Source: Agromyces allii (GTDB lineage: Bacteria; Actinomycetota; Actinomycetes; Actinomycetales; Microbacteriaceae). Taken from it: DNA of 64,000 bases. Location: positions 62,001-126,000 of the forward strand of contig NZ_WBIN01000007.1 in assembly GCF_009749385.1 (NCBI RefSeq). The letters run 5' to 3'. The notes beneath the pieces were generated by a model. The model saw nothing but the letters and a program-made list of their open reading frames with translations. It ran no database searches and was not told the DNA's origin. The translations under genes were made by a program, and so were the position numbers. The first letter of the stretch is position 1. Each line of letters starts with the position of its first letter. Of the stretch, positions 47,743 to 61,993 are shown piece after piece.

Positions 47743-49077
47743 ATGTCGTGGGAATTCGTCAGTCTGCAACAGGCCATCGATCAGGCGGGCTCGCCCGTGC
47801 GACTGCTCTGGAAGCCCGGCGCAGCACCGTGGAAGCCCCCGATCGTCGACGACGAGTACGCCGGCTGGGCGGCCGAGCAGACGGCCTGGCGCTCGGGCGT
47901 GACGATCTCGGACCTCTCGTTCCACATGTCCGACACGTTCCTGAACGGACCGGATGCCGCGCGGCTGCTGAGCGACGTCAGCGCCAACAACATCGAGGTC
48001 TTCGCGATCGGCCAGGCGAAGCAGTTCGTGCCCGTCACCGCGAGCGGGAACCTCGTCACCGACGGCATCCTGCTCCGCGACGGCGAGACCTCGTACAAGC
48101 TCAGCGGCGTGCCCGCCGCGCAGAACTGGGTCACCCACCACGCCGCGGCCGGCGGCTACGACGTCGAGTTCGAGACCGACCCCGACCGATCGTTCACGCC
48201 GGGCGACCCGCGCCTGTTCCGACTGCAGGTGCAGGGCCCGGCCGCGCTCGAGCTCGTCGAGCGGGCGTTCGGCGGGCCGCTTCCCGAGATCAGGTTCTTC
48301 CACTCGACGGAGGTCTCGCTCGGCGGCGTCACGTTCCGGGCGCTGCGCCACGGCATGGCCGGTCAGCCCGGCTACGAGTTCATCGGCTCGTACGAGCACC
48401 ACGACCTCGTCAAGGGCGCACTGCTCGACGCCGGTGCGGAGCTCGGCGTCGTGCACGTCGGCGCCCTCGCCTATGCGACCAACGGCATCGAGAGCGGCTG
48501 GATCCCCGCACCGACGCCCGCGATCTACACCGACCCGACGCTCGCCGCCTACCGCGCCGGGCTCGGCCTGTTCACCTACGAGGGCCAGAACCCGCTCTCG
48601 GGCAGCTACTACTCCGACGACATCGCCGACTACTACACCTCGCCGTGGGAGCTCGGCTACGGTCGCTCGATCTCGTTCAACCACGACTTCATCGGCCGCG
48701 ACGCCCTGCAGGCCGCACGCGACGAGGTCCGCCGCACGAAGGTCACGCTCGAATTCGACCGGGCGGATGCCTCCGAGCTGCTCGGCGACGACTCGGCGTA
48801 CCTGAACGACTACGGCCGCCACCGCATCGAGGTCGACGGCCGCCTGGTCGGCACGACGTTCCAGAGCGCGCGGATCGCGCCGGTGGGAACCGTGCTCGCC
48901 CTCGCGCTCGTGGAGCACGCCGCGGCGGAGCCCGGCACGAGGGTCGAGGTCGTCTGGGGCGAGCATCCCGGACACGGCACGCCTGCCGACGCCGACCTCG
49001 GGTTCGCGCGCATCGGGGCGACCGTGCGGCCCGCGCCCTACAACGAGTACGCGCGAACCGGCTACCGGCAGGACTGA
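47743..49077 (+). CDS. LigM/DesA-like THF-dependent O-demethylase 1
   Basis: A 444-residue GcvT-fold protein matching the aryl O-demethylases LigM and DesA of Sphingobium rather than glycine-cleavage T protein: EYAGWAAEQTAWRSGVTISDLSFHMSDTFLNGPDA, IGQAKQFVPV, FRLQVQGPAALELVE, LRHGMAGQPGYEFIG and GIESGWIPAPTPAIYT. Tyr244, before ESGWIP, corresponds to the catalytic tyrosine described for LigM (Tyr247) in my alignment from memory. It would move a methoxyl methyl to THF, giving 5-methyl-THF. Start ATG with AAAGGAG upstream. Divergent from lysR. About two thirds identical by eye to the homologue at 58663. DMSP demethylase, another GcvT relative, is the main alternative but fits the context less well. 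Confidence 0.85.
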   Translation: MSWEFVSLQQAIDQAGSPVRLLWKPGAAPWKPPIVDDEYAGWAAEQTAWRSGVTISDLSFHMSDTFLNGPDAARLLSDVSANNIEVFAIGQAKQFVPVTASGNLVTDGILLRDGETSYKLSGVPAAQNWVTHHAAAGGYDVEFETDPDRSFTPGDPRLFRLQVQGPAALELVERAFGGPLPEIRFFHSTEVSLGGVTFRALRHGMAGQPGYEFIGSYEHHDLVKGALLDAGAELGVVHVGALAYATNGIESGWIPAPTPAIYTDPTLAAYRAGLGLFTYEGQNPLSGSYYSDDIADYYTSPWELGYGRSISFNHDFIGRDALQAARDEVRRTKVTLEFDRADASELLGDDSAYLNDYGRHRIEVDGRLVGTTFQSARIAPVGTVLALALVEHAAAEPGTRVEVVWGEHPGHGTPADADLGFARIGATVRPAPYNEYARTGYRQD

Positions 49078-49092
49078 CCGCGCAGGAGGCAC

Positions 49093-49130
49093 GACGGCCC
49101 GGGCTGCTGAGGATGTCGGCCCGGGCCGTC
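49093..49130. terminator. Bidirectional terminator between demethylase 1 and the ABC operon
   Basis: Perfect 12-bp stem: GACGGCCCGGGC (49093-49104) and GCCCGGGCCGTC (49119-49130) with a 14-base loop, between convergent gene ends. No T-run. Confidence 0.7.
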
Positions 49131-49213
49131 GCCGTCCGAGCCGGCCTTCGGGCAGGCCGCGCTCGGGAGGGCGAGCAGACGGATGCGGCGGGGACGAGCC
49201 GCACCCGACCCGC

Positions 49214-60015: not shown

Positions 60016-60122
60016 GGTGGTGCTCTCTTCCTCGAGATGGTGCGGATGCCGCGGGGCGGCGGAGTGCTGGCGGATGCCGCGGGCCGGCGAGCGTTCGCCA
60101 GGGCCGGCTCAGCCGGTCGGGC

Positions 60123-60971
60123 TCACTTGGCGCGGAACGCCTGGATCCACTCCGACGTCGCGGTGAGCCCGCCGAACGTGTAGAAGTGCAGGCCGACGCG
60201 GCCGTGGCGGGCCTCGTCGTATCCGGCGGCGAGGCCGGTGATGAGCTTGTCGGGGCCGGCCGTGCCCACGAGGTTCGCGAGCGAGAAGCCGTACTTCTTG
60301 ATGATCATGGCGTTGGCGCCGACGCCGAACCGGGTCGCGAACGCGATGAGGCGCTTGACGCCCGCCGGCCCCGGCACGCCGATGCGGATCGGCAGGTCGA
60401 TGCCCTCGGCGCGCACGCGCTCGATCCAGGCGAGCACGGCCTCGTCGTCGAACGCGAACTGGGTGAGGATCGTGCCGTCGAGGCCCTGCTTGGCGAGCGA
60501 GTCGGCCTTGCCGCGAAGGGCGTCCCACAGCAGCTCGTCGTCGATGTCGGGATGCCCCTCGGGGTATCCGGCGATGCTGACGTGGCGCACGCCGTACTCG
60601 GGCAGCAGGCCCGAGCGGATCACGGTCTCGGAGTCGGCGTAGGGACCCGCGGGGGTCGCGGGGTCGCCGCCGACCGCGAAGACGCGCTCGCTCGCGCCGG
60701 CATCCCGAAGCGCACCGAGGTACTGCTCGAGTTCGGCGCGGCTGGCGAGCCGTCGTGCCGAGATGTGCGGCACGGGCGCGAAGCCGCTCTCGAGCACGGC
60801 GCGGGCGGCCGCGAGGCGCATCGGCAGGTCCTCGTTGCCGAGGAACGTCACGTTCACGCGCGTGCCCGCTGGGATGAGCGGGGTCGCCTGACGCAGGTCG
60901 TCGACGTCCTTGCCGGTCATCTCCAGCGAGAAATCGGTGAGCAGGTCCATGGGGGTGAGCACTTTCGTCAT
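60123..60971 (-). CDS. metF: Methylenetetrahydrofolate reductase
   Basis: A 282-residue FAD-dependent TIM barrel: MTGKDVDDLRQATPLIPAGTRVNVTFLGNED, VPHISARRL, VFAVGGDPATPAGPYADSETVI and the YPEGHP segment typical of MetF, then GLDGTILTQFAFDDEAV. Biosynthetic MetF makes 5-methyl-THF; next to an O-demethylase it probably runs in reverse, oxidising 5-methyl-THF to 5,10-methylene-THF, as proposed for MetF in Sphingobium lignin-aromatic catabolism. Being between purU and demethylase 3 makes it a dedicated copy. Whether another metF serves methionine synthesis cannot be seen. Confidence 0.88.
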   Translation of the reverse strand: MTKVLTPMDLLTDFSLEMTGKDVDDLRQATPLIPAGTRVNVTFLGNEDLPMRLAAARAVLESGFAPVPHISARRLASRAELEQYLGALRDAGASERVFAVGGDPATPAGPYADSETVIRSGLLPEYGVRHVSIAGYPEGHPDIDDELLWDALRGKADSLAKQGLDGTILTQFAFDDEAVLAWIERVRAEGIDLPIRIGVPGPAGVKRLIAFATRFGVGANAMIIKKYGFSLANLVGTAGPDKLITGLAAGYDEARHGRVGLHFYTFGGLTATSEWIQAFRAK

Positions 60972-61093
60972 TGAAGAGCCTTTCGAACGTCGGATGTGAG
61001 AACACCGGATGCCGCGGGCCTCGGCCGTGCGACTGCGGCGGGTGGGGTGCGGCGAGCGACGACGGGCGGGTCCCGGCCGCCCGCCGCCGCGGG

Positions 61094-61993
61094 CTAGAAG
61101 ACGACCGTCTCGCGGCCGTTGCGCATGACGCGGTCCTGGCAGTGCCAGGTGACGGCGCGGGCGAGCACGGCGCGTTCGACGTCGGCGCCGCGGCGCTGCA
61201 GGTCGGCGGCGGTGTCGCTGTGGGTGACGCGCACGACGTCCTGCTCGATGATCGGGCCCTCGTCGAGGTCCTGCGTCACGTAGTGGGCGGTCGCGCCGAT
61301 GAGCTTGACGCCCCGCTCCTTGGCCTTGCGGTAGGGGCCCGCGCCGATGAACGCCGGCAGGAACGAGTGGTGGATGTTGATGACGGGCACGCCGATCTGC
61401 TCGAGGAAGTCGCCCGAGAGGATCTGCATGTAGCGGGCGAGCACCACGAGGTCGACGTTGCCCTTCAGCAGCTCGACGATGCGGGCCTCCGCGGCGGACT
61501 TGTCGACGCCGCCGGACGGCACGTGCACGAACGGGATGCCGAACGACCGCACGTCGTCGGCGACATCCGTGTGGTTGGCGATCACGAGCGGCACGGTCAT
61601 GGCGATCTCGCCGCGGCGCTGGCGCCAGAGCAGGTCGAGCAGGCAGTGGTCGCTCGTCGAGGCGAGGATCGCGACGCGCTTGGGCACCGAGCGGTCCGAG
61701 AGGGTCCACGTGAGGCCGAGCCCCTTGCCGAGCAGCTTCGCGAGCGACTCCTCGAGCGCGGGCCGCACGGCGGCGTAGTCGTTCACGTGGAACACCGTGC
61801 GCTGGAAGAAGCGCCCGCCCTCGGGGTCGTCGGTGTGCTGGTCGAGCGAGACGATGTTCGCCCCGTTCTCGGAGAGGGCCGACGAGATGGCCCGCACGAG
61901 GCCGGGGCGGTCTTCGCCGTGCACGAGCAGGACGCCCTCGTCGGAGGGCAGGCGCAGGCCGAGGTTGGGCGTGCGGGGTGCGACGATCGTCAT
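61094..61993 (-). CDS. purU: Formyltetrahydrofolate deformylase
   Basis: A 299-residue enzyme releasing formate and THF from 10-formyl-THF. An N-terminal ACT domain (about 18-95, HGEDRPGLVRAISSALSENGANI) is followed by the formyltransferase-like domain with catalytic Asn206 and His208 (INIHHSFLP) and Asp244 (DLDEGPIIEQ). In a demethylation setting it regenerates free THF and excretes the one-carbon unit as formate, parallel to purU in the Arthrobacter pAO1 nicotine cluster. ATG with AAGGAG upstream and operator site C 18 bases before the start, so it heads a regulated unit with metF, demethylase 3 and the GNAT-AAA+ gene. Confidence 0.92.
   Translation of the reverse strand: MTIVAPRTPNLGLRLPSDEGVLLVHGEDRPGLVRAISSALSENGANIVSLDQHTDDPEGGRFFQRTVFHVNDYAAVRPALEESLAKLLGKGLGLTWTLSDRSVPKRVAILASTSDHCLLDLLWRQRRGEIAMTVPLVIANHTDVADDVRSFGIPFVHVPSGGVDKSAAEARIVELLKGNVDLVVLARYMQILSGDFLEQIGVPVINIHHSFLPAFIGAGPYRKAKERGVKLIGATAHYVTQDLDEGPIIEQDVVRVTHSDTAADLQRRGADVERAVLARAVTWHCQDRVMRNGRETVVF

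Follow-up and report, generated by a model that had tools for sequence, protein, structure and literature searches.

The window analyzed here is a stretch of 64,000 nucleotides from the Agromyces allii genome (4.36 Mb), and it contains a gene island that, taken as a whole, is very probably a tetrahydrofolate (THF)-dependent aryl O-demethylation regulon. The island encodes three LigM/DesA-like proteins, Dem1 (47743–49077, plus strand), Dem2 (55150–56529, minus strand) and Dem3 (58663–60015, minus strand), together with a MetF of the LigM-linked type (60123–60971, minus strand) and the formyl-THF deformylase PurU (61094–61993, minus strand). We have high confidence in the predicted core mechanism, folate-dependent aryl O-demethylation with one-carbon oxidation to formate. 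Dem1, Dem2, and Dem3 would each pass a methyl group from a methoxylated aromatic to THF, using a LigM-type Tyr. The island MetF would oxidize methyl-THF to methylene-THF, in a direction that we infer, a chromosomal FolD would carry this on to formyl-THF, and PurU would release formate and THF, completing the cycle with no need of formate-THF ligase, the enzyme named for Sphingobium. The phenolic product would then be ring-cleaved by an extradiol module, and a MarR repressor would act on three transcription units via a shared palindromic operator. Homology, clades, residues, linkage, and palindromes were computed, and activity, MetF direction, regulation, and substrates are predicted from them.

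Three demethylase-like proteins outside the LigM and DesA clades

The Pfam GCV_T model matches Dem1 (E = 4.4e-34), Dem2 (9.4e-32; the profile scan used a longer frame, 55150–56559) and Dem3 (1.7e-31), and each protein has a conserved Tyr preceding an ESGWI motif (Tyr244, Tyr239, and Tyr247, respectively). The initial annotation had described three GcvT-fold, LigM/DesA-like genes with these tyrosines, and both positions and fold are exactly as claimed. The top NCBIfam models are DesA and LigM (E = 3.5e-110 to 1.2e-155), DesA being the highest-scoring model for each of the three. Models for GcvT (NF001567; 59–67 bits, cut-off 300), dimethylsulfoniopropionate (DMSP) demethylase (31–57 bits, cut-off 410), and sarcosine oxidase (33–47 bits, cut-off 1164) are all missed. 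The predicted structure of Dem1 (predicted local distance difference test score 85.7) aligns in Foldseek to LigM structures with a template modeling (TM) score of 0.87 by query length and 34–36% identity, versus TM scores of up to 0.65 for GcvT, dimethylglycine, and DMSP enzyme structures. LigM is also the best PDB match of both Dem1 and Dem2.

That the substrate might be some other one-carbon donor, such as a methylated amine, DMSP, sarcosine, or a methyl ester, is suggested by the GcvT fold common to these enzymes, and is hardly credible given that models for GcvT, DMSP demethylase, trimethylamine N-oxide demethylase, and sarcosine oxidase score 18–70 bits against 369–518 for LigM and DesA, and that ring-cleavage genes are linked to the island. 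Grouping with DmdA, sarcosine, or glycine-cleavage enzymes, which the initial annotation had named as refuting its reading, did not occur in either phylogeny or scores.

Dem3 is 70% and Dem2 39% identical to Dem1. A search of the genome with Dem1 returned Dem1–3 and one weak match (E = 6e-9) on contig C12, probably GcvT because it lies approximately 1 kb from the glycine cleavage P-protein. Relatives were surveyed from the best 80 of 252, giving 77 loci (designated by L numbers). The alignment of 122 rows includes LigM but neither the overlong, broken Dem1 frame of L023 nor two other stray long frames. Removing another 26 rows, chiefly gammaproteobacterial sequences and repeats of loci, gave the 96 rows of a first tree; a second tree of 75 rows also omits the outgroups, the divergent GcvT-like sequences, the disrupted Dem2 of L023, and some additional loci. 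The DesA references are L088 and L089, which alone exceed the DesA cut-off among seven matches listed. L034 has a partial member of the clade, which enters neither the trees nor the residue counts.

In the 75-protein tree, the Dem1/3 clade (34 proteins), the actinobacterial Dem2 clade (8), the LigM clade (13), and the DesA clade (5) each form one split with 98–100% support. The LigM (100/99) and DesA (99/98) splits both exclude Dem1, Dem2, and Dem3, and the earlier 96-row tree, which has outgroups, agrees. Dem1 and Dem3 define two subclades (100/98 and 89/89). As both are present side by side in loci from Agromyces, Microbacterium, Herbiconiux, and Demequina, the duplication is ancient, and both copies have been retained. 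The Dem1-Dem2-Dem3 triad is found in the window and in six other loci (L011–L015, L023), a recurrence that supports a role for three enzymes, as proposed at the outset.

In L023 (Microbacterium elymi) the Dem1 and Dem2 frames look broken (L023:10001–14250), possibly through sequencing error. A fourth, more divergent GcvT-like paralogue is present in islands L018, L023, L032, L033, and L035, with 28–30% identity to Dem1–3 in the cases scored; in the L033 copy, Gln replaces the catalytic Tyr.

A remodelled active-site pocket

Residues Tyr247, Glu215, His60, and Trp256 (LigM numbering) are kept in 34/34 Dem1/3-clade proteins, and Tyr247 and Glu215 in 9/9 of the Dem2 group, which includes the broken L023 row. 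In the Dem1/3 clade, Arg122 is found in 3/34 proteins, and Gln57, Arg245, and Tyr31 each in 0/34 (one Tyr31 cell is a gap). All eight residues are kept in 24/24 of the LigM set, of which six rows (L057, L063 twice, L072 twice, and L087) lie outside both trees and were assigned by likeness. The DesA set keeps Arg122, Arg245, and Tyr31 in 8/8 and Gln57 in 7/8. Dem2-clade proteins keep Arg122 and Arg245 (9/9) and have Leu at position 57 and Phe at position 31 (9/9). The presumed aryl-acid residues Tyr31, Gln57, and Arg122 are all missing from Dem1 and Dem3, and Dem2 has only Arg122. Judged by these positions, the pocket of Dem1 and Dem3 is remodelled relative to that of LigM.

It is unlikely that Dem1–3 are simply the actinobacterial equivalents of LigM and DesA, acting on vanillate, 3-O-methylgallate, and syringate. 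The ranking of the DesA and LigM models, the LigM structures matched by Dem1 and Dem2, and the two arginines kept across the Dem2 clade all speak for such an equivalence. Set against these are the well-supported splits that leave Dem1–3 outside both clades, the loss of Arg122, Gln57, and Tyr31 from nearly or entirely all of a clade when LigM-clade proteins keep them throughout, and a genus mate (L009) in which a LigM-clade protein is encoded separately, next to metF and purU. In addition, a scan of open reading frames, mostly at 28–64 kb, gave no gene for protocatechuate ring cleavage; elsewhere in the genome no search for such a gene was made. The vanillate/syringate-type substrates of the initial annotation thus sit poorly with Dem1 and Dem3, which lack the LigM/DesA aryl-acid residues, and the substrates of Dem1–3 are probably not benzoate-type acids of this kind.

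LigM-clade proteins with a full LigM active site do occur in actinobacteria, at L009, L056, L059, L083, and L041, which comprise the Agromyces genus mate and loci from Brevibacterium, Arthrobacter, Nesterenkonia, and Citricoccus.

When bacteria use lignin and plant phenolics, aryl O-demethylation is a limiting step. A clade that combines the catalytic residue of LigM with a different pocket points to oxygen-independent demethylases for other compounds, which, to our knowledge, LigM and DesA do not accept.

One-carbon oxidation and folate genes

On the minus strand the gene order is purU, metF, and dem3, confirming the earlier placement of metF beside one demethylase gene with purU upstream. 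The island MetF matches Pfam MTHFR weakly (E = 2.2e-8, longer frame) and reaches 41.2 bits on the canonical MTHFR model TIGR00676, missing its cut-off of 293.7. Its match to PDB entry 7xg9, which we take to be S6MTHFR, the catabolic MetF of Sphingobium sp. SYK-6, has E = 2.9e-87 (query residues 21–294), and the next match 7.6e-9. A separate canonical MTHFR is encoded elsewhere in the genome. PurU scores 355.8 bits on TIGR00655 (cut-off 285.95). One FolD in the genome, on contig C12, is above cut-off, and no match to formate-THF ligase was found in the genome by a search that was positive in 4/14 control genomes. With one FolD, a canonical MTHFR, and no match to formate-THF ligase, the route probably leads to formate by way of PurU. 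A THF-dependent O-demethylation island with MetF, PurU, and a general FolD, as first proposed, therefore has support in the sequence. VanA_C has no match in the genome. A role for the island in replacing glycine cleavage, as in SYK-6, was rejected, as the glycine cleavage P-protein GcvP is present with the GcvT-like match approximately 1 kb away.

Among the 28 Dem1/3-clade loci (L011–L035, L053, L110, L111; L017 and L019 come from one genome, as do L026 and L053), island-type MetF is encoded in 17, PurU in 17, FolD in 12, PabB in 7, and FolP in 5. A one-copy gene of a 4–8 Mb genome would be expected approximately 0.1 times in those 546 kb. The linkage of metF, purU, and often folD to this clade extends to distantly related actinobacteria. 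The corresponding counts are MetF 3, PurU 5, FolD 2, PabB 0, and FolP 0 in 12 actinobacterial LigM-clade loci, and MetF 5, PurU 3, FolD 0, PabB 1, and FolP 0 in 29 non-actinobacterial LigM/DesA-like loci. This comparison favors the Dem1/3-clade group, since at least 38% identity to window or clade-locus proteins was needed and some comparison loci are short (L006, L008, L009); it is not even-handed, because the threshold misses more distant MetF proteins (L049, L084, L085). FolD, PabB, and DHPS representatives from the clade loci pass curated cut-offs.

Demethylenation of a methylenedioxy ring gives methylene-THF directly, which would leave the linked MetF of 17/28 loci without need. It is accordingly quite improbable that Dem1–3 use THF to demethylenate such rings, as SesA and BrdA do. 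These actinobacterial relatives do hand a one-carbon unit to THF (PMC5547118). BrdA is reported to be 26.7% identical to LigM/DesA (PMC5547118), against approximately 35% between the Dem1 model and LigM.

For the O-demethylation regulon, the folate genes add a further observation. PabB is encoded inside the demethylase islands L013, L014, L018, L025, L029, L032, and L035, and FolP inside L014, L018, L025, L029, and L035. L014 (Agromyces sp. Soil535; L108 and L109 repeat this locus) also has a FolE-like gene, below cut-offs, and L025 a PabA/TrpG-type amidotransferase. With folate-synthesis genes in these islands, the cell may enlarge its THF pool for the pathway. Their recurrence suggests that THF supply may be limiting, which would be useful for engineering.

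Ring cleavage and candidate substrates

A putative ring-cleavage module spans 39.6–46 kb of the window, on the minus strand. It comprises genes for a two-domain extradiol dioxygenase (VOC; 45054–45992) that is distantly HpaD-like with candidate metal ligands conserved, an aldehyde dehydrogenase (43546–44991), an FAA-hydrolase-family protein (42658–43500) whose nearest NCBIfam model is the HpaG C-terminal domain, below cut-off, an alpha/beta hydrolase (41292–42113), an HbpS-like protein (40669–41307), and a MetE-like protein without the usual zinc-ligand motifs (39615–40676); starts of the dehydrogenase, hydrolase, and HbpS-like genes are approximate. The dioxygenase residues His155, His215, and Glu266, which we take to be the metal ligands of the family, are invariant in the alignment. 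L011 has the module in synteny, and it is found again next to genes of the Dem1/3 clade in an Acidimicrobiia metagenome-assembled genome (L021) and in Actinomadura (L033).

HpaD-type genes lie near four of the seven triads (L013, L014/L108, L015, L023), and also in L016, which has no triad. HpaD is above cut-off in L013, L108, and L023, and HpaH in L013; HpaI of L108 is below (321.3 bits, cut-off 368.8). These homoprotocatechuate-type ring-cleavage genes near relatives' triads, together with the remodelled Dem1/3 pocket, lead us to propose phenylacetate-type substrates. The first candidates are methoxylated phenylacetates such as homovanillate and homoveratrate, or a larger molecule that contains a unit of this kind, a suggestive assignment that we would rate as reasonable but somewhat short of probable.

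A DUF3500 protein is encoded beside hpa-type genes in two genera (L108:5701–6999 and L016:19049–20362), with an amidohydrolase adjoining in L108. Both are possibly upstream enzymes that could betray the substrate. MetE-like proteins without the His-x-Cys motif and the terminal Cys, presumably the zinc ligands, are found in the window and in L011, L018, L021, L033, and L053, and the motifs are kept in L017 and L035. The gene apparently encodes a methionine-synthase paralogue without a zinc site, tied to aromatic ring cleavage. As the motifs are missing, its action as a methyl-THF sink is doubtful.

A shared operator-like palindrome

A MarR-type regulator (56663–57214, plus strand; Pfam MarR) is encoded divergently from dem2, and recurs in 9/28 Dem1/3-clade loci. 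The 64 kb hold three copies of the palindrome TTCAGN4CTGAA with no more than one mismatch, one at each of three promoters: upstream of dem1 (47667–47680), between dem2 and marR with one mismatch (56586–56599), and upstream of purU-metF-dem3 (62014–62027). The expected number is 0.27, and 0/100 shuffles reach three. A looser palindrome core is present in 21/59 upstream regions of MarR-bearing loci (window 4/6, relatives 17/53), compared with 174/10000 random windows and 1/42 regions preceding the corresponding genes in clade loci that lack this MarR. It lies upstream of at least one of these genes in L011, L013, L014, L015, L023, and L025, and was not found upstream of them in L012, L027, and L029. 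A fourth loose match in the window falls inside a gene for a GNAT-AAA fusion. With two mismatches allowed, the palindrome is found in 10/52 upstream regions of relatives and in 189/3600 control windows. A single palindromic operator is probably what places all three transcription units under the MarR repressor.

Weighing the regulon

Several observations count against reading the island as such a regulon. Dem1, Dem2, and Dem3 reach 369, 489, and 377 bits on the LigM model NF047885, and 381, 518, and 417 bits on the DesA model NF047633, missing the curated cut-offs of 580 and 800. The roles of LigM Arg122, Gln57, and Tyr31 are our assumption, with Arg122 presumed to bind the vanillate carboxylate. 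MetF is missing from 11/28 clade loci and PurU from 11/28, where some loci, not all, are cut short (L011 ends inside Dem3), and the folate-synthesis genes of relatives are absent from the annotated parts of the window. No enzyme of the window module reaches an Hpa cut-off: the dioxygenase, for which HpaD is the one NCBIfam match among those listed, scores 41.8 bits on TIGR02295 (cut-off 321.4), and the FAA-family protein, whose best match is HpaG, scores 117.9 bits on the C-terminal model (cut-off 276.4). A true HpaD is encoded on another contig of the genome. The strict palindrome is weak in relatives (at most one mismatch in 4/52 upstream regions, compared with 25/3600 control windows), and 38/59 upstream regions lack the looser core, with dem2/marR and other shared intervals counted twice. 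The operator statistics are not independent, because the pattern was drawn from these promoters and loosened after the relatives had been seen.

A broader proposal, which we offer more tentatively than the phenylacetate assignment, is that Dem1 and Dem3 may represent a new functional class of THF-dependent O-demethylases for non-benzoate methoxyarenes, either methoxylated phenylacetates or larger natural products. The duplicated pair and the acid-binding Dem2 would strip methoxyl groups in order under a common MarR operator, and the related islands, with their own folate synthesis (PabA-type, PabB, FolP, FolE-like) and one-carbon oxidation (MetF, FolD, PurU), could act as a self-contained folate engine.

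Neighboring genes and distribution

Nik/Opp-type ABC transporter genes occupy the interval between dem1 and dem2, all on the minus strand and with approximate starts. They encode an OppF/NikE-like ATPase (49214–50083), a fused OppC-OppD-like permease-ATPase (50164–52248), an OppB/NikB-like permease (52251–53213), and a family 5 solute-binding protein (53354–54919). Profile matches identify a LysR-type regulator divergent from dem1 (46669–47574, minus strand) and a second MarR-type regulator (46029–46571, minus strand). Further away, at 30477–32369 (plus strand), an NhaA-type Na+/H+ antiporter is fused to a DsbA/thioredoxin-like domain.

Behind dem3 lies the gene for the fusion of a GNAT-like N-terminal domain to a Cdc48/FtsH-type AAA ATPase (57236–58570, minus strand). 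It was rejected as part of the system. The family occurs in 29/396 phylum genomes (E ≤ 1e-60) versus 3/396 with the Dem1/3 clade, and is therefore not specific to demethylation; moreover, among the 28 clade loci it is shared only by L011.

The Dem1/3 clade (E ≤ 1e-150) was detected in 2/60 genus genomes and 3/396 phylum genomes, A. allii itself included in both. Near the region, signs of a mobile island were sought and neither a tRNA nor a composition break was found; gain or loss is hinted at only by how rare the island is in the genus. Apart from tRNAs, no RNA element in the window exceeds the Rfam thresholds. The island is real, coherent, and rare, an accessory catabolic trait rather than core metabolism.

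Comparison with known systems

The THF-dependent O-demethylation route is already known for the phylum, and the suggestion in the initial annotation that it is new there was overstated, being preceded by SesA, BrdA, a predicted Solirubrobacterales DesA-like enzyme, and actinobacterial LigM-clade proteins. The chemistry itself is known from work on N. aromaticivorans LigM and DesA (PMC8091115). Apparently new are the divergent paralogue pair, the PurU/FolD branch, the folate-synthesis genes in related islands, and the shared operator. In the available parts of the open-licence literature on such demethylases, no description of the Dem1/3 clade, its pocket, or the folate cassette was found.

Two other GcvT-like actinobacterial enzymes that depend on THF, SesA from Sinomonas and BrdA from Rhodococcus and Arthrobacter (PMC5547118), have methylenedioxy substrates, which set them apart, by description, from Dem1–3. 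The Solirubrobacterales protein, predicted from a metagenome-assembled genome that also has metF and ligH, is 69.5% identical to DesA with substrate-binding residues conserved (PMC9296663). Both systems are actinobacterial with metF; however, the Dem1/3 clade lacks those binding residues. Among dicamba demethylases, Dmt06 is reported to be identical to an Actinomadura protein (PMC9404685). DesA, the syringate O-demethylase, is the best model for Dem1–3, yet they score 381–518 bits against a cut-off of 800 and fall in separate clades.

The closest parallel to the regulon is LigM-MetF-LigH of Sphingobium sp. SYK-6, which has in common with it the fold, the catalytic Tyr, the LigM-linked MetF type, and a MarR regulator. 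The Sphingobium MarR protein DesR represses ligM, desB, and desR, and its regulon includes the ligM-metF-ligH operon (PMC6888825). According to a 2025 conference abstract, SYK-6 MetF oxidizes methyl-THF, and similar gene sets occur in many other bacteria (PMC12585457). SYK-6 has no glycine cleavage system (PMC12585457), whereas the A. allii genome has GcvP. In contrast to the SYK-6 system, the island lies outside the LigM clade, has lost the aryl-acid residues in Dem1 and Dem3, and has PurU in place of LigH, in a genome with no formate-THF ligase match. The only strong PDB match of the island MetF is 7xg9, presumably the SYK-6 catabolic enzyme S6MTHFR, but the actinobacterial loci instead link MetF to PurU, and often to FolD.

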